Source: a virus
Reading direction: 5' to 3' (one strand)
IMG/VR virus record: IMGVR_UViG_3300033977_000108
Location: 62,001 to 126,000 of that record
DNA length: 64,000 nucleotides
Shown: piece by piece, positions 2,175 through 61,677 of the stretch
Layout of the letters: each line of letters starts with the position of its first letter
Position numbering within the stretch: position 1 is the stretch's first letter
Translations under genes and position numbers: made by a program
The notes under the pieces: generated by a model
The model's database searches: none
Told to the model about the DNA's origin: nothing
The model's input: the letters and a program-made list of their open reading frames with translations, nothing else

Positions 2175-2930
2175 ATGAGTGTCGAATTCAGCGTTTGCCC
2201 TAATAAAGAACCCAACAATAAGTCTATCTCTATCTATCTTATTATCAATAAGCTAAATCACAAAATGTATGTTGGACAAACCTACAGGAGCTTGAAAAAG
2301 CGCTGGTGGGAGCATTGTCGTGGAACTCAATGTAGGGTTCTGGGCAGAGCTATACGCAAATACAAGTCTGAGAACTTTATTATCACACCAATAGTATCCG
2401 TGTTTATGGAAAAAGAGGCCGATGCATTGGAAACGGAATACATAAGCTTTTTTGATACTATGAATCCGTCCAAAGAATACAATCTTACATCTGGAGGCGG
2501 TAGGGGAAGAATGCTATCCAATGAATCCAGAGATAAAATGTCCGAATCAAAAAAGGGCGAAGCAAATCCACATCGTAACTTGATGAATAATAGCCAAAAA
2601 TACAGAATGAACTGGAAAGAGAACATGAAAAAGGCAATACATGGACATCCACATTGGGATTGGACTGGAAAATCCCCAGCGGCAATAAGCAGATACCTGA
2701 GAGTTCATTTTGGCGAGCCTAACAAATGCGAAAACGTTCATTGTATATACCCTCGTAAGATTGGTAAAAAGGGAAAATTACTACAGAAACCTACTGGATA
2801 CAAGTGGATAAATATCACTGATAATAATCTATCAAAGACTAGAGATGCTTGGCGCATATTATGTAATAGTTGCGCTTCATTCTGGAAGTGGAATGGCTTT
2901 GGTAATAAAAGTGAGGTGTGCTTTGCCTGA
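2175..2930 (+). CDS. GIY-YIG homing endonuclease with NUMOD3-like and degenerate HNH-type C-terminus
   Basis: The N-terminal GIY-YIG nuclease domain (about residues 17-100) shows SIYLIINKLN, then YVGQTYRSLKKRWWEH, and a downstream acidic residue region (ALETEYI). A NUMOD3-like DNA-binding segment follows (residues ~110-130, with MLSNESRDKMSESKKGEANP). The C-terminus has a Cys-rich module (NKCENVHC ... LCNSC) like the degenerate HNH halves of phage homing endonucleases. It is AT-rich compared with its neighbours, as expected of a mobile gene. It starts after GAGGAGAACACCGC and overlaps the next gene by 8 bases. Role: a free-standing homing endonuclease that spreads itself into related phages. 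Confidence 0.85.
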   Translation: MSVEFSVCPNKEPNNKSISIYLIINKLNHKMYVGQTYRSLKKRWWEHCRGTQCRVLGRAIRKYKSENFIITPIVSVFMEKEADALETEYISFFDTMNPSKEYNLTSGGGRGRMLSNESRDKMSESKKGEANPHRNLMNNSQKYRMNWKENMKKAIHGHPHWDWTGKSPAAISRYLRVHFGEPNKCENVHCIYPRKIGKKGKLLQKPTGYKWINITDNNLSKTRDAWRILCNSCASFWKWNGFGNKSEVCFA

Positions 2931-5463
2931 AAAACCCTTATGGTCAATAGTAAATATTATGCGAAACGAAGAAGCTCAGCTTCCTGGTCTAGCCGCTTCA
3001 TTAAGAGAATTCTTGGGGCGCGGTGGGGACTGGATTATCCTTGACACAGGGTCGATTGATAATAGCGTAAAAATTGCCAAGTCTCTTGGAGCGCGAGTTT
3101 TCGAAGCAGGGGAAAAGTTTATCTTTGCCATAAACGAGGATACAGCCAATAAAATAAATGAACGATTTATTATTCCTCCTGAAGAGCCTATCATAAAAGC
3201 CGGCGATAAGCTTTTTGATTATTCAAGTGCCAGAAATGAAGCTGCAAGCTATGCGCTGAATGATATGTGTCAGATGCCAGATGTAGATGAGAAATTCACG
3301 AAATGTGATATAGATTATATCAATGATGTAATAAGACAAGGCTATACACAAATAGAGTTCTCCTTTATTTTTGCGCATCTACCAAATGGCAAACCAGCTG
3401 TCCAATTCAGACAATCAAAAAGCTACAATCGCAAAATAATGAAATGGGTAGGCTATGTTCATGAAGTCCTTCAAGGAGATGCTAAACGAATCTACATTCC
3501 TCCAGATAAGCTTCTATTAGAGCACTTCCAGGCGCCACAGGCGCATCGTAGCCGATACATGGCAGGTCTCGCTTTAGATTGCTGGCAACATCCAGATAAC
3601 GATAGGAATTCCCACTACCTCGCCCGCGAACTATTCTGGAGCGGTCGCTATCATTCTGCAATTAAGGAATTTACGCGCCATGTCGCCATGAACCGTTGGA
3701 TACAAGAGCGCGGGGAATCAATGATTTTCATAGGCGATGCCCATTTAGCCCTGGGTGATGAGGAGAAAGCCATAGAGGCCTGGCATAAGGCTATTCAGAT
3801 AGATGATACGAGGCGCGCGGCCTGGATGCACCTGGCAGACCTTTATTGTAAAAAGAATAATCCACAGAGAGTTATTTGCTATTGTACCGCGGCCCTGGAA
3901 ATCCCGCCTAATGACTGCTACATGAATTTGAGTGCTCATTATACCTTTGAGCCTCACGAGCGTCTCTATTGGGCTTATAATGCCTTGGGCAACAAAGAAA
4001 AGGCCAAGGAGCACTGGAAGAAAGCATTTGACTATTGGCCTGATAACCCTAAGTTCCTGGCTGATAAGCAGTACTATGACCCAGCATCAGAGGAAGAGAT
4101 ACTACCGAAACTGGCTATTCTTCTTCCTACTTTGGGCCGGCCGGAAGGGTTAGAACGATGCCTGGAATCCATTCGTAAATCATTCTATCCAAAAGATTTG
4201 ATTACTGTCTATACAGATGACGATGCGGAAGCCTCCGTCCCTGTAAAAGTAAATCGTCTGGCAAAGGCTCATCTAGATGTGGATGCTTATGTCTATGCTG
4301 CCAATGATGTAGTGTTTGAGACCTTTTCTCTTCGTGATGCCGCCCGCGCCTCAAAAGAGCATGGATTGGTAGCCTTCAATTCAGGAGACCTCTACCCAGA
4401 CCAAGGGAACATCTGCGAGCACTTTATCATTACCAAGAATCTGGTGGATAAACTGGGAGAGATTTTCTGTGAGCGGTTCCATCATGTGGGCTGTGATAAT
4501 CTGCTCTGGGCGAAAGCCAGCAAGTTGGGGCAGGCCTATCGTTGTGAGGCGGCTATTATAAAACACCATCACTTTGCCAAGGGTGAGCCAATGGATGCCG
4601 TTTATGAGCGCGGCTGGTCGCAGGTGGAACAGGACCGCGCCATACTGAAAGAAGAACTGGCTAAACTTGAAGATCCCAACCGCGTAGAAGTGATAACCAA
4701 CATCCCCAAGCGTATCTTCACCATCTTCTTGAACGATTATGACGGAATGCCTTCAGTAGCCAAGAGATGCTTCCCTACGCACCAACTGCCTGGCTATGAG
4801 CATCGCTTCATTACAATGAAGAACGCCTACCTGGAGGCGCCCTACATTCAACAGGCCCTGGCCTCGAATAATAAAACCAAGTGGGTAAAGATTGCTGATT
4901 ATCTACGCATCTGGTATCTGCTGACAGAGGGCGGAATCTATGTGGATTCGGACATGGAAATCTTGCCGGGGAAGAACTTTGACCAGTTCTTACATTATAG
5001 GATGTTCGCCGGTAAAGAACACAATGGCTGGATAAGCAATGCCCTCATGGGTGCCGAAAAGGGCTATCCGTTCTTATCTGCTTGGCTGACTTACATGGAA
5101 AAGAACTTCCGCGGCGATGATGGGAAGGTCTATGAAGCCGCTATGGAGCCCATGACTAAGAACTACTGGCCTGGTGGCTCGGTTTTTTCTTATAATAACT
5201 TGGCCGATGTCATGGACCAGAAGCCTGGGGCTGCGAAAACTTTGTATCAGGAACCGCCTAATCCAGGCTGGTATAGGGAAGGCTTCATAGTTTATCCCCC
5301 AGAGTATTTCAATAACTTTGATCCAAGGACTTGGAAGCACGTAGTAAGCCCAGAGACCATAGCGATACATCACTTCACTAATGCATGGTTAGAAAGACGC
5401 CAGCAGCGCCCTTGTTGCGATTGGCAAAGCGATTGGGAAACGTGGCGCGAAAGAGGGAGTTAA
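2923..5463 (+). CDS. Trimodular glycosyltransferase: GT2-like + TPR + GT2-like + GT32-like
   Basis: TTG at 2923 is the best start: GTGAGG lies 6 bases upstream and it begins just ahead of the conserved N-terminal strand; longer frames run inside the endonuclease gene. Of 846 residues, 1-210 form a GT2-type GT-A domain (IVNIMRNEEAQ, ILDTGSIDNS). Residues ~215-370 are TPR-like helical repeats. Residues ~396-590 form a second GT-A domain (AILLPTLGRPEGLERCLESI, YTDDDAEA). Residues ~594-846 form a GT32/Gly_transf_sug (OCH1-like) domain with the GGIYVDSD signature (DSD 675-677). One polypeptide may therefore add several sugars in sequence. It likely modifies a virion glycoprotein or surface polysaccharide; the adjacent GYT fibre is the obvious candidate acceptor (inference). 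It is coupled to the next gene by a 3-base gap. Confidence 0.85.
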   Translation: MPEKPLWSIVNIMRNEEAQLPGLAASLREFLGRGGDWIILDTGSIDNSVKIAKSLGARVFEAGEKFIFAINEDTANKINERFIIPPEEPIIKAGDKLFDYSSARNEAASYALNDMCQMPDVDEKFTKCDIDYINDVIRQGYTQIEFSFIFAHLPNGKPAVQFRQSKSYNRKIMKWVGYVHEVLQGDAKRIYIPPDKLLLEHFQAPQAHRSRYMAGLALDCWQHPDNDRNSHYLARELFWSGRYHSAIKEFTRHVAMNRWIQERGESMIFIGDAHLALGDEEKAIEAWHKAIQIDDTRRAAWMHLADLYCKKNNPQRVICYCTAALEIPPNDCYMNLSAHYTFEPHERLYWAYNALGNKEKAKEHWKKAFDYWPDNPKFLADKQYYDPASEEEILPKLAILLPTLGRPEGLERCLESIRKSFYPKDLITVYTDDDAEASVPVKVNRLAKAHLDVDAYVYAANDVVFETFSLRDAARASKEHGLVAFNSGDLYPDQGNICEHFIITKNLVDKLGEIFCERFHHVGCDNLLWAKASKLGQAYRCEAAIIKHHHFAKGEPMDAVYERGWSQVEQDRAILKEELAKLEDPNRVEVITNIPKRIFTIFLNDYDGMPSVAKRCFPTHQLPGYEHRFITMKNAYLEAPYIQQALASNNKTKWVKIADYLRIWYLLTEGGIYVDSDMEILPGKNFDQFLHYRMFAGKEHNGWISNALMGAEKGYPFLSAWLTYMEKNFRGDDGKVYEAAMEPMTKNYWPGGSVFSYNNLADVMDQKPGAAKTLYQEPPNPGWYREGFIVYPPEYFNNFDPRTWKHVVSPETIAIHHFTNAWLERRQQRPCCDWQSDWETWRERGS

Positions 5464-5466
5464 GGA

Positions 5467-6441
5467 ATGAAAATCGCTATCGTCTATCCAACTCTCTTAC
5501 CACTAGCCTGGGATGTATCTGGCGGCATCGTCCATACTTTGCGGAAGCTCGGGCACCTGGTGATGGAGATGCCTCAGTCCATAGAGTGCCATACTTCGGT
5601 CAACTGGTGGTCACGGCTTGATGAAATAAACGCTGGAGATTTATTCTTACTGATAGCCCCGGAATGGGCTATTGAGGGAGATGGCTATTGTGGGTATCAT
5701 AATGCCGAGCCTAAACCTAAAATAGATAGTATTCTATCAATGATAAAGATAAAGAAGGCGGCACTATTCACCGAAAATCAAGTGGTGGATGATGGGAAGA
5801 AGACCTTTGATTTCAAGCAGATAGCTTCAATGTTTGATTTCAATTTCTTTATTACAGCGCAGGAGGCTGCGCTCACAGGCGGTCTTTGGCTGCCGCCTGC
5901 CGTGGATACGGATATGTTTCATCCCACTGGGCAGCTGCGCACGATAGAAATAGCCGCGCCAGGAACAAGTTGGTCTGAAAGTAAAAGAGATTTCCTTTAT
6001 AGATACAGCCAAATAGCGTCTCCTCAATATATCCCTGTTGTGGGCAAATGCATAGTAGAGAACTTGGATGGAATCAGCCTGTACGAAACCGCCAAGCTAC
6101 TGGCTTATGATTATAACCGGGTAAAAATAGTAGTATCTTTACCCCCATGGAAGAATCATGTACCTACCTTTCTTCCTTTGCGGGCTACCGACGCAATGGC
6201 TTGTGGTTGTTGTGTTCTCACGCCGGTGCTCCGTGGCGCAGCGGCTGAAAATAGCAAGTTTATAAATGGAGTAGACCTTTTCTATTATGAGCCGACGCCC
6301 GCGGGCTTGTTAGAGACATTGCTGCGCGTAATAGACAAGCCAGAGAAACGCGACGCAGTAGCTGCCCGCGCTCCGCTCGCGATACAAGATGGAAATACTT
6401 TGGAGCAGCGAATGGAGACTATGCTGTCAGTTTGCTCATAG
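5467..6441 (+). CDS. Glycosyltransferase, GT-B fold, CgeB / GT4-like
   Basis: A 324-aa protein with an N-terminal Rossmann-like strand (MKIAIVYPTLLPLAWDVSGG) and a C-terminal donor-binding half carrying TDAMACGCCVLTP (about residue 240), then NGVDLFYYEPTPAGLLETL. This is the arrangement of spore-maturation CgeB-type and group 1 glycosyltransferases, where the second half binds the nucleotide sugar. It is shorter than typical GT4 enzymes (about 370 aa). It starts at ATG 5467 after AAGG and belongs to a three-gene glycosyltransferase run (2923-7548). Acceptor and sugar are not visible. Confidence 0.75.
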   Translation: MKIAIVYPTLLPLAWDVSGGIVHTLRKLGHLVMEMPQSIECHTSVNWWSRLDEINAGDLFLLIAPEWAIEGDGYCGYHNAEPKPKIDSILSMIKIKKAALFTENQVVDDGKKTFDFKQIASMFDFNFFITAQEAALTGGLWLPPAVDTDMFHPTGQLRTIEIAAPGTSWSESKRDFLYRYSQIASPQYIPVVGKCIVENLDGISLYETAKLLAYDYNRVKIVVSLPPWKNHVPTFLPLRATDAMACGCCVLTPVLRGAAAENSKFINGVDLFYYEPTPAGLLETLLRVIDKPEKRDAVAARAPLAIQDGNTLEQRMETMLSVCS

Positions 6442-6450
6442 GATATTGCT

Positions 6451-7548
6451 ATGCTTTATCTAAACATGATAGTAAGAGACGAAGCTTCTTGTATCAAGCG
6501 CTGCCTTGATTCCATCAAACCATATATACAGGGCTGGGCTATCCTGGATACTGGTTCCACCGATGGGACGCAGGATATTATAAGGAAGGAATTAGCCAAT
6601 CTGCCCGGTGAATTGAGAGAGGCTGATTTCACAGACTTTGCCACAGCCAGAAATAAGGCTCTGGTACTTGCGAGGGCTTGGACTACGGAAGAGGATTATC
6701 TCCTGCTGATGGATGCTGATGAGGAACTCAAACAAGAAGAAAATACTATATTTCCTACCTTATCAGCAGATGTCTATGATTCCCTGATTCGTCTGGGGGG
6801 CTGTGAGTATTGGCGCACGCTAATCATCAAAGCACATTGGCCTTGGAAGTGGGCGGGCCCCTGCCATGAAAGAATTGCCTGCGATGGCCCTTTCACAAGA
6901 GATAAAATACGAGGTTTCTGGCGGCAGGCGTATCAGCATAAAGAAGAAGATAAAAAGGAGAGATCTCTCTGGTATGCCGCCATGCTGGAAAAAGAGATGG
7001 ATAAAGACCCGAAGGATGCGCGTGCTTGTTTCTATTGGGCGCAAAGCCTGCGGGATGCCGGAGAGTTGGAAAAGGCTGCGTTAGGCTATCGGCGTCGGGC
7101 TACGATGGGCGGCTTCCAAGAAGAAGTTTACATTTCTCTTCTCAATGTCGCCCGTATTTATGAGCGATTGAACAAGCCGGAAGATGTAGTAATAAACGCT
7201 TATCTAATGGCCGCTGCGTCTCGTCCTTCGCGCGCCGAAGCGTTAGGTAGCCTGATGTATTATCTGCGCAGCAGGAAGCGTTTCTATGAAGCTGCTCTTA
7301 TAGCCAGAGAAGCTTGCACGCTAATGCCAACCAATGACCTGCTATTCGTGGAACCAGAATGGGTCAATTGGCGTATCTTGGATGAGGCCTCCATCTCCTA
7401 TACTTGGGCCGGCCGCCTACGCCAAGCAAGAAATGCTATCTTGGCATTAATTACCAGACCTATCCCAGAGGCGCATAAACAGCGCATAGAAGCGAACCGC
7501 GACCTAATCATAAAAGCAGCAACCCCGCCAAATAAGCCTCAATCATAG
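6451..7548 (+). CDS. GT2 glycosyltransferase with C-terminal TPR-like repeats
   Basis: A 365-aa protein. The N-terminal GT-A domain has LNMIVRDEASCIKRCLDSI, ILDTGSTDGT (residues ~31-40) and a DXD metal site, LLMDADEE (DAD 88-90). The C-terminal half is helical with TPR-like repeats (ARACFYWAQSLRDAGELEKAALGY). The same layout is found in SunS-type and other peptide-modifying GT2 enzymes with TPR tails, where the repeats help bind a protein acceptor. This fits protein glycosylation. It is related to the N-terminal module of the 2923-5463 protein. ATG 6451 is preceded by AGGA. Confidence 0.82.
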   Translation: MLYLNMIVRDEASCIKRCLDSIKPYIQGWAILDTGSTDGTQDIIRKELANLPGELREADFTDFATARNKALVLARAWTTEEDYLLLMDADEELKQEENTIFPTLSADVYDSLIRLGGCEYWRTLIIKAHWPWKWAGPCHERIACDGPFTRDKIRGFWRQAYQHKEEDKKERSLWYAAMLEKEMDKDPKDARACFYWAQSLRDAGELEKAALGYRRRATMGGFQEEVYISLLNVARIYERLNKPEDVVINAYLMAAASRPSRAEALGSLMYYLRSRKRFYEAALIAREACTLMPTNDLLFVEPEWVNWRILDEASISYTWAGRLRQARNAILALITRPIPEAHKQRIEANRDLIIKAATPPNKPQS

Positions 7549-52413: not shown

Positions 52414-52950
52414 ATGACTAACCATGGCTCTATACTTCCTCCGGAGGCCAAGTGGCCGCTTCTTGTGGATTATGCCCACAAGATAGGCGCTAAAGTACTT
52501 ATAGAAACAGGTACTCACAGGGGATATACGGTAGAACACGCACTTCCTTTCTTTAGGGACATTTATTCTATTGAACTGGGCGAGCATCTTTACGAATATT
52601 GTGTCCAGATGTTCGCGGGGCAGGATAACGTACATCTTTTCCAAGGAGATAGCGCTGTTCTTCTTCCTATTGTGCTGGAGCATGTAAATGAGTCAGCAAT
52701 CTTTTGGCTGGATGCCCATTATTCGGGAGGAGATACTGTGCTCGGGCCCAAAGGTAGCGCTATTGGCGGAGAGATAGATGCCATTCTGAAGTGGGGCAGG
52801 GGAGATGCTGCAATACTCATAGATGATATACGAGACTTTGGAGGTGGAGATTATCCTCCTATTGAAGAGATTGGAAAGAAGTTGCTTCTCGCTCATCCTG
52901 ACTGGGTTTTCTATGTAGAGAATGACATAGCCAGAGCGCACAGGTCATAG
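52414..52950 (+). CDS. Class I SAM-dependent methyltransferase-like protein (TylF/FkbM-type)
   Basis: 178 residues from ATG 52414. A Rossmann-type SAM motif is seen as VLIETGTHRGYTVEHAL, followed by the acidic strand end SIELGEH and by IFWLDAHYSGGDT, the pattern of O-methyltransferases such as TylF-like enzymes that act on sugars. The neighbouring genes encode fucosyl- and galactosyltransferases, so a likely role is methylating a sugar of the glycan they make (inference). No strong ribosome site is visible. Confidence 0.7.
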   Translation: MTNHGSILPPEAKWPLLVDYAHKIGAKVLIETGTHRGYTVEHALPFFRDIYSIELGEHLYEYCVQMFAGQDNVHLFQGDSAVLLPIVLEHVNESAIFWLDAHYSGGDTVLGPKGSAIGGEIDAILKWGRGDAAILIDDIRDFGGGDYPPIEEIGKKLLLAHPDWVFYVENDIARAHRS

Positions 52951-52967
52951 CCAAGTTGTGGAGGAAA

Positions 52968-53750
52968 ATGAAGCCCGTCATATATTCCGATTTCAATTGG
53001 CAGCCAAAATTGACGGATAGGGACGTTCAAATTGCCATTATGGTGGATTATCGCCCAGAACAAGATGCTTTTTGGGAGGCGCCCATTAGAATATTCGTCC
53101 AAGCCGAACCTCCATGTGTGCGTCCTGATGTACTTGCCCGTTTATCCAAAGAACAGAGTAGATTTACAGCCATTTTAGGTTGGCATTCTTCGCTTCGTGA
53201 CTGCCCGAATGCCAGCTATTTCAATCTCTGTACTGAGACACGTCTCGGAGAGAATTATCAGCCGCTTGCCGATAAAAAGTTTGGTGCTTCTTATTTAATT
53301 AGCACCAAAGCATGGTGCCCAGGCCACATATTCAGGCAAGCTGTCTTTGATGCTGTGGGAAGCTTTGATGGGTTTGAAATTGCCAAATTAAAGAATCTGC
53401 CTTCGCAATACATAGAAAAGGCAGATTTCATCGGCCATTACCAATTTGATATCTCTATTGAAAACGAATTCATCGAGAATTGGTTTACGGATAAGATAAT
53501 TGATGCCTGGGTGGCGAAGGTTGTGCCGATCTATTGTGGGTGCCCGAATCTCGCCGATTTTGGATTTGATACGAGCGGGGTCTTATATTTTTCCAGTATT
53601 GATGATCTAAAAGGGCTTTTGCAACGGATCACTCCGAATACCTATGCTAGCATGTCGGTTGCCATAGAGACCAATTATAACCTGGCGAAGAAATGGATTG
53701 ACCCTTGGCTGCTGGATAAAGAAATAACCAGGATACTGGAGGGAAATTGA
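52968..53750 (+). CDS. GT10 family alpha-1,3/4-fucosyltransferase-like enzyme
   Basis: 260 residues from ATG 52968 (GGAGGA upstream; a TTG at 52956 is less likely). The GT10 signature is present: FDISIENEFIENWFTDKI, then DAWVAKVVPIYCGCPN, equivalent to the SFENS...TEK...PVYWG set of bacterial and eukaryotic alpha-1,3-fucosyltransferases that use GDP-fucose. Shorter than many GT10 enzymes (about 300-400 aa). It overlaps the next gene by 4 bases (TTGA). The sugar donor would have to come from the host. Confidence 0.82.
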   Translation: MKPVIYSDFNWQPKLTDRDVQIAIMVDYRPEQDAFWEAPIRIFVQAEPPCVRPDVLARLSKEQSRFTAILGWHSSLRDCPNASYFNLCTETRLGENYQPLADKKFGASYLISTKAWCPGHIFRQAVFDAVGSFDGFEIAKLKNLPSQYIEKADFIGHYQFDISIENEFIENWFTDKIIDAWVAKVVPIYCGCPNLADFGFDTSGVLYFSSIDDLKGLLQRITPNTYASMSVAIETNYNLAKKWIDPWLLDKEITRILEGN

Positions 53751-54448
53751 ATACATCTCCAGCGAAACCGACTAGGGTGCTCATAGCGATTACCAGCTGC
53801 GACAAAGAACCTTATCTATTTAGGCAGAAGCTTCAGCAAGAGACATGGATACCTATAGCCCAGCAGGCTGGTTATGCCGTTGAGTTCTTTACTGGCAAGC
53901 GTTTAGGTGTCTCGGATGACTATTTGAAACTGCCCCTCAAATTAAGGGCTATGTGCCGTTGGGCAACAGAGCAGAATTATGATTACATGCTCAAAGTAGA
54001 CGATGATACTTATGTGAATGTCGGGGGCTTGAGAATTATAAGGGCAGATTATGCTGGAGTTCCTATACCACCAAATGATTGTGGGGATTATAAGAATTCA
54101 GCTCCGGAACTTAAACCTGGGACTACGAAATATCCCTATTGTCCTGGAGGGGCGATCTGGTTATCAGCGAGAGCGATGAGGTTTATTGCGAATGCGCTGG
54201 TTGAGACGGATTGGGCTGATGATAGATGGGCAGGACAAGTGCTGGGGAAATATAACATAATTATCTGTTCTATGGCAGATAAGATGATTCTGGGTCCTGT
54301 TAATCATGGTATGTTCAACCCAGCAACTTTGCGGCCTCTATTGAAGAAAGAGATTGTAGCTGTTATGCAAGCCGGTGCAGGTGACAGAGGCAAAGACAAT
54401 TTTGTTCTATGCCAGAAATTCTTTGCTGGTGCTTATATATTGAGATGA
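53747..54448 (+). CDS. GT31-like (galactosyltransferase/fringe-type) glycosyltransferase
   Basis: 233 residues from TTG 53747, which overlaps the previous stop and has GGAGGGA 3 bases upstream. Features: LIAITSCDK start, QQETW, the metal-binding DDD motif in YMLKVDDDTYV (residues 85-87), and CPGGAIWLSARAM; these are hallmarks of beta-1,3-galactosyltransferase/fringe-type GT31 enzymes. The usual C-terminal E-D-V step is partly kept (WADDRWAG). It is related to the C-terminal half of the 58440-59840 fusion protein. Confidence 0.8.
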   Translation: MNTSPAKPTRVLIAITSCDKEPYLFRQKLQQETWIPIAQQAGYAVEFFTGKRLGVSDDYLKLPLKLRAMCRWATEQNYDYMLKVDDDTYVNVGGLRIIRADYAGVPIPPNDCGDYKNSAPELKPGTTKYPYCPGGAIWLSARAMRFIANALVETDWADDRWAGQVLGKYNIIICSMADKMILGPVNHGMFNPATLRPLLKKEIVAVMQAGAGDRGKDNFVLCQKFFAGAYILR

Positions 54449-54825
54449 AACAAATTCCCAAAGCTTGGCGGCGGCACAACAGAAAGAGAAAGAAATCCAG
54501 TTATGAAGTCATTGTAGAATGCTGGCTAAAGGAACTGGGTGCTCATTATAAGCGGGAAGCGGCAATCGGCCATTGCCACGCTGACTTCCTGATTTATCCC
54601 AGGACACTCGTAGAAGTCAATGGATGCTACTGGCACAAGTGCCTAAAGTGCTTTCCAAAGCCGACTAAGAAGCAGGAAGCGCAGAGAATCAGAGATTTCT
54701 ACCGCTATCAGTTCTTCCAAAAGAAAGGCTATAGAGTAGTGGTTATACGAGGGCACGAGATAGATGAAGACCCATTGGGAGTAAAAGAACACATTAAGAA
54801 ATTGTGCTCGTCTTTGGATGAGTGA
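54445..54825 (+). CDS. Vsr/DUF559-type PD-(D/E)xK endonuclease
   Basis: 126 residues from ATG 54445 (ATGA overlap with the preceding gene). The nuclease core is visible: Glu21 in SSYEVIVECWL, Asp47 in HADFLIYP, Glu57 in LVEVNGCYWHKC, and the later strand GYRVVVIRGHEI. This is the fold of Vsr and small homing-type nucleases. A Lys/Arg-rich N-terminus may bind DNA. In phages such genes are often free-standing mobile endonucleases, consistent with its position amid a glycan gene group. Confidence 0.8.
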   Translation: MKQIPKAWRRHNRKRKKSSYEVIVECWLKELGAHYKREAAIGHCHADFLIYPRTLVEVNGCYWHKCLKCFPKPTKKQEAQRIRDFYRYQFFQKKGYRVVVIRGHEIDEDPLGVKEHIKKLCSSLDE

Positions 54826-54827
54826 TT

Positions 54828-55730
54828 ATGGCTTTCGCATCAGGAAATGTAGGACCTAACATTGGGGGCGGATTGCTTGCCGGGCAGAACGATGCTACAG
54901 GCGGGCAGAATTCAGCCCTTTGGGGCGTCCCAATTGCCGCCGCCGCTGGTGGACTGGGTTATTGGGCGTGGAAGCGCTACCCAAGAGAAACCGCACAAAT
55001 GCCTTTATTCCCAAGAGGCGAGCTGCCGGAACGCAGTATGTTAGGCGCCATGGGAAGAGATATAGACCGGGCCTGGGCGTATGTCGGCAGTCGTATGTCC
55101 AGGACTATCGGCGACTTACGCTATAATATGGGCCGGCACCCACAGCAACTGGAACTGCCTTTTGGTGCTGCTGCGGCACGCAATGCGCGCGGTGTAGGAA
55201 GTTGGATAGGAAGAGCCAAGGCATGGGGAGGGAATCTTCGCACAGGCGCGATATGGGGCGTACCCGATATTATGAGGGGACGGCCTATTCGCGGGCTCAG
55301 CCGTGTAGGCCGAGGTATAGGGTCTGGTTGGAAGATGGGTTTTGGTTCCGGCTGGGCGGGCTGGGGATTTGGATTAGTGGCTGGCGGGGTAGGTGCTGGT
55401 TTAGCACCTCGGGGTCATAGAGTAAGCACCTTTGCCGGCGCAACAATGGGCTGGATGCTAGGAGCGCTTATAGGCGGCGCCATTGCCGGTCCTGTGGGTG
55501 CCACTGTTGGTATGTTTGTTGGAACCACGGCGTTAGAAGGTGTAATAGCCAAGCCTATACAATTCCTGCACGATTATGCTACGATGACCAGACATTTGGG
55601 CATGGGTGGTTGGTATGAGGATACCTATCCGGCTTATACTATGCGACAGCGGGCAGTAAGAGAGATGTCGGCTAGCCTACTCAATGCCCGACAATATTTG
55701 GGCCGCGAAGCTCTCCTTTTACATCAATGA
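54828..55730 (+). CDS. Gly/Ala-rich membrane-active-like virion protein
   Basis: 300 residues from ATG 54828 (a GTG two codons earlier is possible). Hydrophobic Gly-rich segments at about residues 32-46 (WGVPIAAAAGGLGYW) and ~165-245 (WAGWGFGLVAGGVGAGL; GALIGGAIAGPVGATVGMFV) resemble glycine-zipper membrane inserting helices; the middle is basic with GRGIGSGWK-type motifs. It could be an ejected membrane-pore or internal virion protein. It ends in REALLLHQ, whose last residues are nearly repeated at the end of the downstream HNH-type endonuclease. Confidence 0.6.
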   Translation: MAFASGNVGPNIGGGLLAGQNDATGGQNSALWGVPIAAAAGGLGYWAWKRYPRETAQMPLFPRGELPERSMLGAMGRDIDRAWAYVGSRMSRTIGDLRYNMGRHPQQLELPFGAAAARNARGVGSWIGRAKAWGGNLRTGAIWGVPDIMRGRPIRGLSRVGRGIGSGWKMGFGSGWAGWGFGLVAGGVGAGLAPRGHRVSTFAGATMGWMLGALIGGAIAGPVGATVGMFVGTTALEGVIAKPIQFLHDYATMTRHLGMGGWYEDTYPAYTMRQRAVREMSASLLNARQYLGREALLLHQ

Positions 55731-55738
55731 GTTAGCAC

Positions 55739-55763
55739 TTGACAGCTTTGCGTAGTTTATAAT
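55739..55763 (+). promoter_or_regulatory. Promoter-like sequence before the HNH-type endonuclease
   Basis: A perfect -35 hexamer TTGACA (55739-55744) and a perfect -10 hexamer TATAAT (55758-55763) occur in the 54-base gap upstream of the gene, but only 13 bases separate them rather than the usual 16-18. The -10 reads TATAATAC, as in the promoter before the GIY-YIG gene at 2148. A GGGAGGA ribosome site follows. Confidence 0.45.
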
Positions 55764-55784
55764 ACACTAACATCGGGAGGAACT

Positions 55785-56519
55785 ATGGCAAAGCTAATAA
55801 ATTTGCTTGGGCAGCGTTTTGGCAGACTTGTTGTAGTAGAGCGGATGAGACAAAATAAGAGAGATAGGCCGGCATGGCGATGCTTGTGTGATTGTGGGGT
55901 TGAAACAATCATTGAAGGCGAAAATCTTAGATATGGCCATACAAAAAGCTGCGGTTGTTTAATACCAAATTTCATAGATCTGACTGGACAACGTTTTGGT
56001 AAATTGGTTGTTTTAGAGATGGCTGATAGGAACAAATTTCATCATATTCTATGGAAATGTAAATGTGATTGTGGAATGCTAAAATCTGTTTCTACGACCG
56101 TGCTAAGGAATGGAAAAACTATCAGTTGTGGCTGCGCTCATAAAGAAGCCATGGTTGCTCTTAGTAAGCAGTATCGTGAAGCTCATGGCTGTATTAGTGA
56201 AACCTATGAATATAAGATATGGCAATCGGCAAAACATAGGGCAAAGCGTGATAATCTACCGTTTAATATCTTGCCATCCGATATCATAATCCCTAAATTA
56301 TGCCCGGTTCTCGGTATTGAGTTGAAAAGGAATGGGCGAGAAGCAAAAGGTGATAGTCCATCTATGGATAAGATAATCCCACAACGAGGCTATGTTAAAG
56401 GAAATATCAGGATTATCAGCTTTAGAGCCAATTCTATAAAGAGGGACGCTACGGCTGAAGAGCTTAGAAAAGTGGCCGACGATGCAGCAAAACAGGAAGC
56501 TATGCTATTTCATCAATAG
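55785..56519 (+). CDS. HNH-type homing endonuclease with two tandem zinc-finger repeats
   Basis: 244 residues. The first half has two copies of a Cys-finger repeat: GQRFGRLVVVE ... WRCLCDCG ... SCGC, and GQRFGKLVVLE ... WKCKCDCG ... SCGC. The second half has the catalytic-type block: YKIWQSAKHRAKRDNLPFNI, CPVLGIEL, SPSMDKI and RGYVKGNIRIISFRANSIKRDA, which is typical of phage homing endonucleases of the HNH/His-Me class. The last residues EAMLFHQ copy the end of the upstream gene. It has its own promoter-like sequence. More AT-rich than its neighbours. Confidence 0.82.
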   Translation: MAKLINLLGQRFGRLVVVERMRQNKRDRPAWRCLCDCGVETIIEGENLRYGHTKSCGCLIPNFIDLTGQRFGKLVVLEMADRNKFHHILWKCKCDCGMLKSVSTTVLRNGKTISCGCAHKEAMVALSKQYREAHGCISETYEYKIWQSAKHRAKRDNLPFNILPSDIIIPKLCPVLGIELKRNGREAKGDSPSMDKIIPQRGYVKGNIRIISFRANSIKRDATAEELRKVADDAAKQEAMLFHQ

Positions 56520-56528
56520 GGAGTATCT

Positions 56529-56774
56529 ATGGCTGATATTACATATGGAGGGCTGGATTTAACGCTTTTAGAAGGACGTGTGAATCAATTAGATGGGGCG
56601 GGCCTGCCCGCTGGACAAACATCGGACATCGCCGCCTTACAAAAGCAAATCAATGGCCTGAAGACTACAATGAATAATCTTACCCTAACCTTTGAGCAGC
56701 AATTACAGGCTCTCACCAAACAGGTAGCCAATCTAACCATCCTAGTCAATACGATAACAGGAACCAACTCCTAG
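56529..56774 (+). CDS. Small coiled-coil protein, 81 aa
   Basis: ATG 56529 follows AGGGAG. The C-terminal two thirds are a heptad helix (about residues 33-75: IAALQKQINGLKTTMNNLTL ... ALTKQVANLTILVNTI). Probably a trimeric or dimeric helper such as a fibre chaperone or foot. It is the last plus-strand gene, and its TAG stop overlaps the TAG of the facing gene within CTAG. Confidence 0.65.
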   Translation: MADITYGGLDLTLLEGRVNQLDGAGLPAGQTSDIAALQKQINGLKTTMNNLTLTFEQQLQALTKQVANLTILVNTITGTNS

Positions 56775-56956
56775 GGAATATACCGGTCCGTGGAAACAAA
56801 TAGGTGTATCTCCCAATCGTATGACTCATGCAAATGCGTAATGACTTTAGGCGGGTGCAGCCAATAAAGCAGCATGGTGCTCCAGGCAATCTTATCCCTC
56901 CTGTAGTTCTGTCCATAATCAAATAATCTGGGCTTATTGTCCGTGTTTTTAGGCAT
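56771..56956 (-). CDS. Small protein of unknown function, 61 aa
   Basis: The ATG overlaps the stop of the upstream glycosyltransferase gene (TAATG), a firm sign of translational coupling. 61 residues, Trp-, His- and Tyr-rich (IAWSTMLLYWLHPP), no family recognised. It is the last gene of the minus-strand glycan group and converges on the gene at 56529-56774 with overlapping stop codons. Confidence 0.6.
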   Translation of the reverse strand: MPKNTDNKPRLFDYGQNYRRDKIAWSTMLLYWLHPPKVITHLHESYDWEIHLFVSTDRYIP

Positions 56957-58440
56957 TATTGTCTCTTCAAGATACCATTTTCAAAGTGTCGGGAGCGTCC
57001 TGGGATTAGAGGCGCTGCCGCTGCTGACTTCTGTACCGTTCGGCGCTGAATAGGCCTCTGGATAGGCCTCTGGTGCGGCAGAATTGGCTTCCTGACGGGG
57101 TTCGGGATACTGGTTAGGGTCTGAGGTATAGGCTTTTTATAGCTTTTACTCCTGGGTTTCTGCGTTTCGGTCCTATCTGTCCTGAAATCATAGATATACA
57201 GAGGTTCTTCTATCGTATAGCCGGTCTTCAAAACGCCGTCCTTTGTCATTAGATGCCAGCGTTCGGAGTCTTCACTCATGCTTTTGGCAGGAAATCTGTA
57301 CTGGCGGGCGATTGTGGCACGCGTAGGGCATAAATGATTGGGCTCGCGGATTTGAAATACATCGCTCAAGTCTGTATCTTGTTTGTATTCAATGGCAAAG
57401 CGGGAAATCCTGGGATGCTTCAAGTCCAACATAGTAAGTTGAAGGAAGCAGATGACGTCTACATCTTTCTCTGCGGCGGCCACCAGCTTGGCTACATAGT
57501 CGGCCGTAATCTTATCATCGTCATCAATGTAGCATAGATATTTCCCTCTGGCTATGTCCATCAATTCATTGCGTTTAGTACCTACATCCTTTTCCAGATT
57601 ATCAATGTTATACAGTATTTCAACATCGTCTGGGTTGGGCAAGTCAAACACCTGGGCGTATAACCCAGCCAATAAATCCACCAATAGCTGATGCCGGCTT
57701 TCAATCGAACAGATTAGAATGCTCAAAATAGGGTCTTTGATATCGAAGTTCTTAGCCCGCCGTTTGTTAAAAAGCTCTCCATCTACACCATAATAGGTCT
57801 CATTCCTTTGCATCAGCTCATCCCATTGGGCGCCGGTGAAAATCGGATGCAAATGCTTGACCAAGCACTTCCCTGAAGCCCTGCTCCATTCGGGTACCTC
57901 GGTGAATTTATGCAGCATTTTATGTACTTCACCATTCTCTGTGTCGCCGTATAAAGAAACATAGGCAGGAGAAAAGAAGTAGTTGAAACGACGATACAGA
58001 TTATAGCCGATAATGCAAAGGGTCGGCATGCTATCCGGCCGGAAGCCATCCCAATAGTATAAACTACCATCCAGCCCTGGATAATACTTATCCATGTCTG
58101 TCGCTATGATGTCGTCATAATCTTTTACCTGCGGCCACATATCGTCGGCGGCTACGATGGCAATGTCAAACCTGCGGCCGTGCATCCCTATATTGCAGGC
58201 CTCATGCTTGCAGCGGGCATGGACTATCATAAACTCTACATTGGCGCCATTGCTGGTGTATTTATGGCTGGTGCCCGCGCTAAAAAGATCCAAAGCGGTC
58301 TGTAAGGTTGGGTCATCATCATCAAGATTGACAAGGAAGTTCACATTATGCTTGCCAGAGAGCAGGGAAATCCAAGTGTCCAAACATTCCTTGAATTGTG
58401 TCGGGCGGGAGCGGGTTGGGAATTTGATTAGTATTTCCAT
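56956..58440 (-). CDS. Double GT-A glycosyltransferase with conserved C-terminal tail
   Basis: 494 residues. The N-terminal GT-A-like domain (1-235; FPTRSRPTQFKECLDTWI, VNLDDDDPT, AADDMWPQ) is followed by a second GT2 domain (~237-420; ILSILICSIESRHQLL, KRNELMDIARGKYLCYIDDD). A Pro/Arg-rich linker (~425-480) leads to the terminal motif SRHFENGILKR. The second domain and the tail are related to the 59837-60571 protein. The start overlaps the previous stop (TGATG). Likely adds two sugars in the same pathway as its neighbours. Confidence 0.8.
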   Translation of the reverse strand: MEILIKFPTRSRPTQFKECLDTWISLLSGKHNVNFLVNLDDDDPTLQTALDLFSAGTSHKYTSNGANVEFMIVHARCKHEACNIGMHGRRFDIAIVAADDMWPQVKDYDDIIATDMDKYYPGLDGSLYYWDGFRPDSMPTLCIIGYNLYRRFNYFFSPAYVSLYGDTENGEVHKMLHKFTEVPEWSRASGKCLVKHLHPIFTGAQWDELMQRNETYYGVDGELFNKRRAKNFDIKDPILSILICSIESRHQLLVDLLAGLYAQVFDLPNPDDVEILYNIDNLEKDVGTKRNELMDIARGKYLCYIDDDDKITADYVAKLVAAAEKDVDVICFLQLTMLDLKHPRISRFAIEYKQDTDLSDVFQIREPNHLCPTRATIARQYRFPAKSMSEDSERWHLMTKDGVLKTGYTIEEPLYIYDFRTDRTETQKPRSKSYKKPIPQTLTSIPNPVRKPILPHQRPIQRPIQRRTVQKSAAAAPLIPGRSRHFENGILKRQ

Positions 58441-59840
58441 CAGATTGATGTATAGAACTCGTGCATCTTCTCGGGCGTCACATAATGCGTGCTGATGATG
58501 TCATTATCCTTCGTGGGGTAGGCATCAGAAATAGAAGACTGATAGCGCGTATCCCAGTGTAAGAAAATCTTGTGCTGTGCCAATAGGCGGCTGACTGCTG
58601 TGTCTTCTGGTTGCAGACCGCCTTCAAAGATTGTAAACTCTTCCAAGGAATGGGATAGAATGGCTTTCATTGCTGCCCGGCTTAGCCAATAACCAGCGCC
58701 GCCGGAAGCAAATGGCACATCGCCGGACCTGTGCTCCGCATTTAGTTCCCGCCCTACATAGTCATAACAAACATAATCCGAATACAAAAGCCTATCGGGC
58801 ACTGCATAGGTGTCGGTGTCGCATTTGAAAAGATAGGTATAGCCTTGTTTATAGGCCCAATCAATCAGAGCATAAACCTTGTGGCATAGATGGTCATAAT
58901 CGCCAGGCACATCCAGGTATACTTCATTCGGCTTTGTTGTTGGCTGGTCGCCGGCCCCAAAGAAGAAGCGTACATCTACATTGGGAAGATTGCCTAACCA
59001 GGTTTCCTGTTGGGCCTTCTGAGATTCCCTGTTCTTATCACAGGCTGGGACAGCGACTAATATCTTTTCATCAGGCACTGCCAGTTTATACCAGCGGTCG
59101 GGTATAATGTCTTTGGCGTCGATGTCTTTGATTGCAAACCATTTATCTGGGGCTATGCGCAACCCAGTGTATTGGGATAGCCACGAGCCCCACCAAGAAT
59201 AGCTACTATTTGTGATAATCGCATGGCGGCATAAAGTCATCAATCGCAGATGCACGTATTTATCCCCGGGGACTACTACCCCGTCAAACTGGGACAATCC
59301 ATTCCAACCTGGTTCATCGGTGAAGATGTAGAACTTGGGATTCTGCACTTTCTGCTGAATCAGACTACACGCCGCGCGATACCAAGACAAAGGCATCAAT
59401 CCATGGATTTTCATCACATCGCTTCGTAGATAATCACCCCGGCGGATAGATACAGCTACGGATTCGCTATTGCTTATCTCTTTGGCCAGGTCAGGTGGCC
59501 TTATCTGATAACGAAAAGCAAGGTGCCGCCTGATAACGGGTTCTATCGCCGCAAAATACTTCTCGGATTGCCAATAACCATCAAAGCAATTATTGTCCCC
59601 TGCTTCAAGAAATGAGGGATTGAATGTAAAAGCATCCTCTGTTTTCGTGATGGGGATAGCATGGCTTATAGTGGAAGCCTTGATCATGAAATGCTGGAGA
59701 TCGTATGTTCTGCCAGAACTATCAGGATAGGTAGAAGTATCTAATAGCAAAGATGTTTTATACCGCTGGGCAAGAGCGGTGCCAAAGGCGTACTGGAACA
59801 TCTGATTCCCGAGACCACCTCTGAGTTTTATAGTAATCAT
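58440..59840 (-). CDS. Fusion of GT11 alpha-1,2-fucosyltransferase-like and GT31-like domains
   Basis: 466 residues. Residues 1-260 are GT11-like: RGGLGNQMFQYAFG (7-20), SIRRGDYLR (131-139; the usual His before RRGD is Ser here) and TNSSYSWWGSWL (210-221). Residues ~262-466 are GT31-like: VAVPACDKN, QQETW, the metal site CDTDTY (DTD 341-343), SGGAGYWLSRAAM and PEDTAVSRLL. One chain may thus carry out a galactosyl-type and a fucosyl-type transfer in sequence. It overlaps its upstream neighbour (ATGA) and downstream neighbour (TGATG). Confidence 0.85.
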   Translation of the reverse strand: MITIKLRGGLGNQMFQYAFGTALAQRYKTSLLLDTSTYPDSSGRTYDLQHFMIKASTISHAIPITKTEDAFTFNPSFLEAGDNNCFDGYWQSEKYFAAIEPVIRRHLAFRYQIRPPDLAKEISNSESVAVSIRRGDYLRSDVMKIHGLMPLSWYRAACSLIQQKVQNPKFYIFTDEPGWNGLSQFDGVVVPGDKYVHLRLMTLCRHAIITNSSYSWWGSWLSQYTGLRIAPDKWFAIKDIDAKDIIPDRWYKLAVPDEKILVAVPACDKNRESQKAQQETWLGNLPNVDVRFFFGAGDQPTTKPNEVYLDVPGDYDHLCHKVYALIDWAYKQGYTYLFKCDTDTYAVPDRLLYSDYVCYDYVGRELNAEHRSGDVPFASGGAGYWLSRAAMKAILSHSLEEFTIFEGGLQPEDTAVSRLLAQHKIFLHWDTRYQSSISDAYPTKDNDIISTHYVTPEKMHEFYTSI

Positions 59841-60571
59841 GTCCTTTTTAGCACGCCATTCTCAAAATGCCTGGAGCCGTGAGAAGTGGGGACTATGTTC
59901 TTTGGCGTGGGCGTTGGCTTACGAATAACCTGGCGTCTAGGCAGGATTGGTTTTGTGGCGGGGGCTGTGATTGGGTTCTTGGCATGAGTTTCCGTACCCT
60001 TGAAGCGGAAATCATAAAGGTAGATGGGCACAGGAATGGTAGTGCAGGTTCTTATGTGCTGGAATACTTCCATAGCCCATGCGCTATCTTCCCCATAGGA
60101 AATCTCTGGGAACTTGTGGGCTTTGGCGTGGGCGGCTAAAATAGGACAGACATGGTAGGGAGGTTTATTATACACACCTTCAATGGTAGGGCTCTCCTTG
60201 CCATAATCCATTGAATGCCTAAACATCTTAGGGTTTCTTAAGTCCCAAGTAATAATGCCGGTAATGCCTACAGCGTCAGGGGATGTTTTTACGGCGTCCA
60301 GGATGCGGGCTACATAATCGCCGGCAACTCGGTCATCGTCATCAACAAAGACCACATACTTGCCGCGGGCCATCTCAAGGAGTTTATTGCGCTTGGCGCC
60401 TACGGTAATCTCTTTATTATCAACCAGATAGATGATTTCTACTGATTCAGGATTGGGCAGGTATTTAATCTGGGCGTATAAGGATGCAAGCAATCCCTGG
60501 AGCAATTCTTTCCTGGCTTCCAGCGAACAAATGAGAATACTTAAAATAAGAGATTGTTCGGTCTCCGGCAT
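59837..60571 (-). CDS. GT2 glycosyltransferase with conserved C-terminal tail
   Basis: 244 residues: a single GT2 domain (SLILSILICSLEARKELLQG, VGAKRNKLLEMARGKYVVFV, then Asp77-80 DDDD) and a later acidic site (SYGEDSAW). A Pro/Thr-rich linker leads to SRHFENGVLKRT, the same tail as in the 56956-58440 protein. It is paralogous to the second domain of that protein. Starts by TAATG overlap with the gene before. Confidence 0.82.
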   Translation of the reverse strand: MPETEQSLILSILICSLEARKELLQGLLASLYAQIKYLPNPESVEIIYLVDNKEITVGAKRNKLLEMARGKYVVFVDDDDRVAGDYVARILDAVKTSPDAVGITGIITWDLRNPKMFRHSMDYGKESPTIEGVYNKPPYHVCPILAAHAKAHKFPEISYGEDSAWAMEVFQHIRTCTTIPVPIYLYDFRFKGTETHAKNPITAPATKPILPRRQVIRKPTPTPKNIVPTSHGSRHFENGVLKRT

Positions 60572-61677
60572 TAAGTTGCATCCTCATCGCGGGCCCTCAT
60601 GATAGCTCGTATTCCATCTCTCAATTCAATGGTGCGTTGGTCTGTGGCGCCAATCAGTTGCCATAATCCCTGATGGTCGCGTTTCAAATCGTGGGCCGGG
60701 TCAAAGCGAATTCTGTCAAGGAAAGACCAGCGAGTAGCATAGCCTCTCTTGTTCTTTGATCCGTGATAGAAGTGGAACACATGGCCGGGCATAAAGCCTA
60801 CATTCTTCTTTATGTGGTCGGCGCATAGCTTGGCCCAATTTCGCACCATGCTATTATAGATAGTCAGGTGGTCTGTATGCTCGGCTATTGAGGATTCAAC
60901 ATGGCCTATAAGAGCCGTAGCCATATGCCAATCGGCAGATCCCATTATAGCCCAGTCAATCAGCATACCAACTTTGGCTAAGGAACTCCTACGCCAAGCC
61001 CAAGCCAACCCAGGCTGCCCCCAGAAGCCTTTTGCATAACCACCAGGGCCATAGGCAGCCTTGAATGGGATGGGGTCATGCCCGCCAGGCCTATGAGGCT
61101 CATTCTGCTTTGCAAACCATTCGGCTATAAAGCCTGGAAACATCAGCGTATCACGCGCGAACAGGTTCTTATCCCTTTGTCTCACGCCCATGGGCTCATA
61201 GTTGGCATTCAAGTCTTGTACTGTGCTGAACATCTGTATGACATCATAATGTTGCAGCAGATGTAGTGTTTCTTGTGCCCAGTCCTGGCGCGCGAACATA
61301 GCGTCGGCGTCAATAAAGGCTATGTATTGAGCCTCCGCCGGCAATCGCTGAACCATTAGATTCTGGGCGTTTTCTTTATACCAGAGCTCATCATGGGAGC
61401 GCAGCTGCAAATGGTGCGGATTGTCAGGCTGCGTTACTTCAAACTGGCGGCCACCAAAAGCTACCTCGGCGGTATATAAAACGGCACCGCCTGCCTCGAT
61501 TTGGCGTTCAAAATTATGATAGTTCTGATAACGAGAACGCCAACGGAGAGGATTGCTCACCATGGTGACAACATAAAGTTTGTCTGGGAAAGGGTGTATA
61601 CCGGGTTTGGCATGTGCAGGATGCTCAATATATGCCCCGGAACCCTCTGGAAAGTGTTTCAGGGGATGGGCATTCAT
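60571..61677 (-). CDS. GT-A type glycosyltransferase, unclassified
   Basis: 368 residues. It has a GT-A-like start (PDKLYVVTMVSNPLRWRSRY), a DXD motif in YIAFIDADAMF (DAD 123-125) and a C-terminal region GFWGQPGLAWAWRRSSL ... SADWHMATALIGH, the type of acceptor-side block seen in phage glycosyltransferases. First of four co-directional glycosyltransferase genes. Ribosome site TTAGGA upstream. Confidence 0.72.
   Translation of the reverse strand: MNAHPLKHFPEGSGAYIEHPAHAKPGIHPFPDKLYVVTMVSNPLRWRSRYQNYHNFERQIEAGGAVLYTAEVAFGGRQFEVTQPDNPHHLQLRSHDELWYKENAQNLMVQRLPAEAQYIAFIDADAMFARQDWAQETLHLLQHYDVIQMFSTVQDLNANYEPMGVRQRDKNLFARDTLMFPGFIAEWFAKQNEPHRPGGHDPIPFKAAYGPGGYAKGFWGQPGLAWAWRRSSLAKVGMLIDWAIMGSADWHMATALIGHVESSIAEHTDHLTIYNSMVRNWAKLCADHIKKNVGFMPGHVFHFYHGSKNKRGYATRWSFLDRIRFDPAHDLKRDHQGLWQLIGATDQRTIELRDGIRAIMRARDEDAT

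Follow-up and report, generated by a model that had tools for sequence, protein, structure and literature searches.

Linked and fused GT10, GT11 and GT31 glycosyltransferase genes in a jumbo myovirus, with a collagen-like fibre as candidate acceptor

The window examined here, a 64,000-nucleotide stretch covering bases 62001-126000 of the 204,633-bp virus record IMGVR_UViG_3300033977_000108 (G000), carries two neighbouring sets of glycosyltransferase (GT) genes that include members of families GT10, GT11 and GT31, with GT11 and GT31 domains fused in one protein. The record is that of a jumbo myovirus, a tailed phage, and encodes a portal (phrog_9232) and a tail sheath (phrog_16991), both recognized by PHROG matches, as well as a major head protein, a baseplate wedge, baseplate J (G000:97434), ribonucleotide reductase and a primase-helicase. 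Its portal is distant from those of named phages (~31%; Moorella phage MTATph1, Acinetobacter ME3, Bacillus KLEB27-3). On the plus strand, the last tail-region genes are followed by genes for a methyltransferase-like protein, GT10, GT31a and a DUF559 endonuclease, at successive spacings of 188, 5, -4 and -40 nucleotides. The minus-strand set reads p368, GT2, GT11-GT31 and GT2-GT2, with neighbouring genes overlapping by 1-4 nucleotides, the pattern expected for a translationally coupled operon. A promoter and terminator scan was uninformative, terminators occurring at chance level. Hydropathy analysis found no transmembrane-like segment in any GT of this phage.

The fusion protein (466 aa; 58440-59840, minus strand) comprises a GT11 domain at residues ~1-253 and a GT31 domain, GT31b, at ~259-466. 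By its sequence the N-terminal half is certainly GT11: residues 2-241 match PF01531 at 72.5 bits against a cut-off of 23.9 (E 4.5e-20), and the family motifs RRxD and SSxSWWG are present as RRGDY and SSYSWWG. The GT31b half had no match in Pfam and was assigned by profile and GT-A fold. It was modelled by itself because the fusion-wide alignment, A3, misplaced rows that contained GT31 only; the resulting AlphaFold model (pLDDT 92) matches B3GNT2, B3GALT6 (TM 0.79), B3GALT5, C1GALT1 and Manic Fringe. A DxD motif is found in both GT31a and GT31b. Recent duplication was considered as the origin of this pair and was ruled out by their 32% identity and separate clades.

GT31a itself (233 aa; 53747-54448, plus strand) is a beta-1,3-glycosyltransferase-like protein that matches PF01762 at 25.9 bits, above the 23-bit cut-off, and contains the motifs KVDDD and DDRW; the GT31 profile A1 matches C1GALT1 at 1.4e-13. 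The GT31 family covers several donors and acceptors. The gene overlaps by 4 nucleotides that of the 264-aa GT10 fucosyltransferase-like protein (52956-53750, plus strand), which taken alone scores 20.7 bits against Pfam PF00852, under the 23.9 cut-off. Profile A2, built from this protein and ten phage relatives, matches the Helicobacter pylori fucosyltransferase (FucT; 9e-17), plant FUT11 (1e-14) and human FUT9 (1.5e-7). The relatives dominate that profile, so the protein's own motif and fold search matter: the FucT motif EN...FTDK...VPIY is complete, and the AlphaFold model has a GT-B fold whose best match in the PDB is 2nzy, with FucTs ranked first (E 1e-7, TM ~0.5), a result specific in its ranking and modest in TM, since unrelated GT-B enzymes score similarly. 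Taken together, the profile of relatives, the complete motif and the fold matches secure the classification of the predicted protein as GT10-like. The original prediction had placed GT10 next to a GT31-like gene, and GT11 and GT31-like domains in one protein, and both its coordinates and its domain calls were right, with the qualifications given here.

The gene that opens the plus-strand set encodes a 178-aa protein (52414-52950) that had been described as sugar methyltransferase-like. It has no match in Pfam, PHROG or NCBIfam, and profile A6, made from its relatives, matches O-methyltransferases of the PDB weakly (E 7e-4), which leaves the description plausible but weak. Relatives of this gene adjoin GT11 or GT31 in other phages. 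In the minus-strand set, the operon starts with the 368-aa GT2-like protein p368 (60571-61677; weak PF00535 match, E 0.04), whose gene overlaps by 1 nucleotide that of a 244-aa GT2 glycosyltransferase (59837-60571; PF00535, 6e-9), and it includes a 494-aa protein with two GT2-type domains (56956-58440; PF00535, phrog_8858, phrog_14945). The C-terminal domain of the latter is paralogous to the 244-aa protein (40% identity). Both proteins have at their C-terminal ends a proline-rich tail ending SRHFENG(I/V)LKR, which perhaps serves in docking. The two GT sets are separated by a DUF559/homing-endonuclease-like gene (54409-54825, plus strand) and an HNH gene (55785-56519, plus strand); these endonuclease-like genes are a possible reason for cassette mobility.

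The same families recur together in other phage contigs. Scans of viral contigs with single proteins (the phage's own GT10, GT31a and portal) gave nothing usable, so alignments were required, and profile A1 was too divergent for scanning. A GT11 scan of IMG/VR yielded 80 loci that were kept, with GT10 within 6 kb in 51 and GT31 in 12. A scan for the GT31a subfamily, unselected for GT11, found 29 viral loci that collapsed by near-identity into 22 lineages, half of which (11/22, in one case by way of a second locus on the contig) have GT11. Members of this subfamily also occur in phage contigs with GT10, with GT6 and with GDP-mannose dehydratase (GMD). The gene order at L102/L103 is GT6-GT31-GT11-GMD-SDR-RmlC-DegT-methyltransferase-GT31-GT31-GT10-GT2-GT31-GT2. 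L125 resembles it, although its contig yielded no GT6; L023 carries GT31, GT11, GMD and GT10.

Fusions recur as well. Pfam confirmed GT31-GT6 (L014, L192), GT6-GT31 (L020), GT11-GT31 (L194, in the same order as in the window phage) and GT2-GT11-GT10 (L174), and repeated fusion with different partners suggests enzymes acting on one product. The multidomain proteins include GT11-GT31 at L194:6918-9404 (828 aa), GT2-GT11-GT10 at L174:6096-8462 (788 aa) and a GT2-methyltransferase-GT31-DXD protein at L196:1269-4955 (1,228 aa). L023 and L025 were rejected as further GT11-GT31 fusions, their tblastn matches to residues 2-463 falling on adjacent genes in reverse order. GT6, the ABO-transferase family, is absent from the window phage and was found in 9/16 GT31 contigs against 0/20 controls, which were GT10/GT11 contigs with no GT31 seen in the stretch examined (Fisher p 1e-4; contigs were sampled by pattern search, are non-random and in some cases related, so that this and later p-values are guides only). 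GT6 genes occur together with GT31 and GT11 at L103:20-724 and in the contigs of L023, L013, L014, L017, L020, L191, L192 and L199, and several of these GT6 genes are fused to GT31. The enzyme set is thus not a chance collection, as its pairings and fusions recur in many unrelated phage contigs, some with GMD/Fcl or GT6. Recurrent linkage and fusion further suggest that GT31, GT11 and GT10 may act on one glycan. As judged from sequence, the animal ABH/Lewis-family toolkit foreseen in the original prediction, with complete GT10, GT11 and GT31 motifs, does exist and recurs among phages.

GT31 is known chiefly from the synthesis of animal glycans. Members of the subfamily found here came mainly from phage contigs, where they are often paired or fused with GT11 and GT6 and sometimes near GT10. 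Against its 29 viral loci, a pattern search, which finds mainly close relatives, returned one close match in 84,980 prokaryote species genomes. That match (43%) lies on L180, a contig of an Ignavibacteriae metagenome-assembled genome that also encodes a collagen-like protein and TPR-linked GTs, and the contig may itself be viral. The phage's own GT31a and the GT31 of L102 had no matches in 50,697 phage records, and no report of GT31 in phages, of the GT31/GT11/GT6/GT10 combination or of fucosylated phage fibres was found in the open-licence PMC literature. Nor did we find support for the suggestion that GT31 contributes to Lewis synthesis in Helicobacter; the review PMC4202792 cites C1GALT and B3GALT5 for GT31 and assigns the fucosyltransferases of Helicobacter to GT10 and GT11, the latter family also including the alpha-1,3 enzyme HhFT2.

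A candidate acceptor lies at the other end of the window. The C-terminal part of a 1,879-aa collagen-like fibre occupies positions 1-2103 (plus strand), its start being upstream, and it is followed by a second GT island (island 1; 2845-7548, plus strand) that encodes an 872-aa GT2-TPR-DXD sugar-binding GT, a 324-aa GT-B-like protein and a 365-aa GT2, as identified with Pfam and PHROGs. The fibre matches Pfam Collagen at 1.2e-22, its Gly-X-Y repeats are Thr-rich at Y, and it contains 112 GxTG triplets, 69 of them GYT, where shuffled sequences have a mean of 9.6 and a maximum of 19. A BclA_C match of 22.8 bits falls under the cut-off of 38, and the fibre is hence not classed as BclA. In L196 the gene for the GT2-methyltransferase-GT31-DXD protein lies 31 bp upstream of that for a GYTG-repeat protein. 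G050 is a true sister of the window phage (51% for the portal and 35-66% for several further genes of the virion region). Among its virion genes are two that encode GYTG fibre proteins; a GT31 protein is encoded within a few kb of the first, and the second matches the window-phage fibre and has a similar position. GYTG repeats were found in 5/28 GT31 contigs and in 0/29 without GT31 (p 0.023).

Virion glycosylation remains the best explanation of these genes, and now has a more specific candidate acceptor. We give about an even chance to a phage-encoded, cytoplasmic glycosylation of virion proteins in which fibres are capped with fucose or another GDP-6-deoxyhexose. Such glycosylation would take place in the cytoplasm late in infection. 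The GT2-type enzymes, possibly with the TPR-linked GTs of island 1, would initiate a short oligosaccharide on fibres rich in threonine and lengthen it; the most likely of these fibres, and the leading candidate acceptor, is the collagen-like one with its GYT repeats. The GT31 enzymes would add beta-1,3-linked galactose or N-acetylhexosamine, and GT11 and GT10 would then terminate the chain, using fucose or a similar GDP-6-deoxyhexose from the GDP-sugar pools of the host, with the GT11-GT31 fusion coupling two successive steps. A broader proposal, that large and mostly uncultivated phages build animal-type ABH/Lewis-like O-glycans with fused GTs and show them on collagen-like virion fibres, with GT31 extension, GT11/GT10 fucosylation and, in some, GT6 capping, we consider unlikely. 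Binding of mucosal lectins and evasion of antibodies, both raised in the original prediction, found no support.

A number of observations weigh against virion glycosylation as set out here. The statistical association of GT31 with the fibre is marginal, since the GYTG count falls to 2/25 versus 0/29 (p 0.21) once the contigs that prompted the idea are removed. A general association of GT31 with the Pfam Collagen model was tried and rejected, as the model fails to separate the groups (6/28 versus 2/29 above cut-off). GT31 and the fibre are ~50 kb apart in the window phage. In G001, G008, G017 and G018 a long distance separates the cassettes from the baseplate gene, so that linkage to tail genes is no general rule. 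Neither the SDR epimerase family PF01370 nor the GMD family PF16363 has a match in the phage genome, and the check for GDP-fucose synthesis proposed earlier was therefore negative; the phage has to obtain the donor from its host, which would make any fucosylated product host-dependent. That the enzymes are active, which donor and acceptor they use, the linkage they form, the order in which they act and the benefit they bring are all points that we infer.

The nature of the donor bears on a related possibility, in which the glycan is capped from a GDP donor other than fucose, such as colitose, perosamine or 6-deoxytalose, and membership of GT10 and GT11 would mislead on the sugar. Some GT11 enzymes use GDP-colitose. 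In the search that gave no GMD-family match in the window phage, the family was matched in 15/16 GT-bearing relatives, and L178 and L023 exceed the NCBIfam GMD equivalog cut-off. The SDR that partners GMD in L103, L125 and L023 differs from Fcl, being weakly Fcl-like in L103 and L125 (E ~1e-8), and the close sister cassette L103 additionally encodes RmlC-like and DegT enzymes that, from their families, could make another GDP-6-deoxysugar. Other relatives have Fcl-like partners (L176, 5e-126; L202, 3e-98; L199, 1.5e-86), all under the equivalog cut-off, which counts against a non-fucose sugar. With an Fcl-like partner in some cassettes and a different SDR in others, fucose is likely in some and uncertain in others, and we regard a different sugar in the window phage as quite unlikely.

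The GTs could instead act on glycans of the host surface (O-antigen or capsule) while infection proceeds, so that the receptor is altered and competing phages are kept out. Authors working on cyanophages and pelagimyophages have read GT islands near tail-fibre genes in this way (PMC9602691, PMC7029224), and genes of the GT6, GT11, GMD and DegT types are characteristic of gene clusters for O-antigen. A host flippase and polymerase could serve such a pathway, phage-encoded ones not having been searched for by family. The GT proteins of the window phage, however, have no transmembrane segment, which a lipid-linked surface pathway usually needs, and the phage has no SDR or GMD gene. The missing membrane segments favour the cytoplasmic virion route, and modification of the host surface seems to us somewhat improbable. 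Far less credible is glycosylation of hypermodified phage DNA as a protection against restriction, which phage GTs are known to perform (review PMC12619734) and for which the DNA and nucleotide metabolism genes of this phage might be cited. No hydroxymethylation or base-modification enzyme was present among the proteins scanned, which represent part of the open reading frames, GT10, GT11 and GT31 are families that elongate glycans, and the GT10/GT31a set comes after tail genes.

Elsewhere the record encodes an N6 DNA methylase joined to a type I specificity domain in a single protein (G000:C1:137643-140027, minus strand). Genes for a polynucleotide kinase/phosphatase, an RlaP-like protein and a T4-type RNA ligase (G000:C1:5746-6780, 167887-168987 and 190720-191946) are suggestive of RNA repair. 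An adenylosuccinate-synthetase-like gene (PF00709, 1.2e-65; G000:C1:196531-197811, equivalent to L010:1534-2811, minus strand) was tried as a PurZ-type base-modification enzyme, and the solved structures closest to it are those of ordinary adenylosuccinate synthetases (PurA).

If active, the cassette would supply compact, soluble enzymes for blood-group-type glycans, and collagen-like phage fibres would be a possible class of glycoprotein. It makes testable the question of whether phages cover their own fibres with 6-deoxysugars of host origin.

The cassette is a variant of already known phage GT islands. T4-like cyanophages (S-SCSM1, S-SRM01, ~100 records) have GT11 relatives of 32-35% identity that correspond to the GT11 half only; none of these records spans the GT11-GT31 fusion, and no phage record matches GT31. 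S-SCSM1 has several fucosyltransferases and other GTs, treated by its authors under cell-wall synthesis, and PMC3961637 notes GT6 in two cyanophages. Profile, motif and fold all place the phage enzymes in families with the animal and bacterial C1GALT1/B3GALT5 (GT31), FUT1/2 and FutC (GT11), and FUT3-9 and HpFucT (GT10), but the phage enzymes are remote from these ABH/Lewis enzymes (13-20% identity), soluble and fused. Sugar-bearing collagen-like surface proteins are known in BclA, a glycoprotein of Bacillus spores (PMC8968730), and in the mimivirus collagen glycosylated by L230; the phage fibre, a candidate glycoprotein, resembles BclA in its sub-threshold BclA_C match and differs in having GYT repeats instead of GPT. 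Glycans on virions are documented for mycobacteriophages, where, as relayed in PMC12619734, they occur on capsid and tail-tube subunits (Freeman et al., 2023). The closest functional analogue is PBCV-1 A111/114R, a galactosyl-xylosyl-fucosyltransferase protein that builds chlorovirus capsid glycans (PMC7826918, PMC9614988). Like the fusion described here, it is a virus-encoded multidomain GT uniting galactosyltransferase-like and fucosyltransferase-like steps; it belongs to an algal virus and has three domains, whereas the tailed phage has GT11-GT31 with separate GT10 and GT31 proteins, and the likeness drawn here is one of function.

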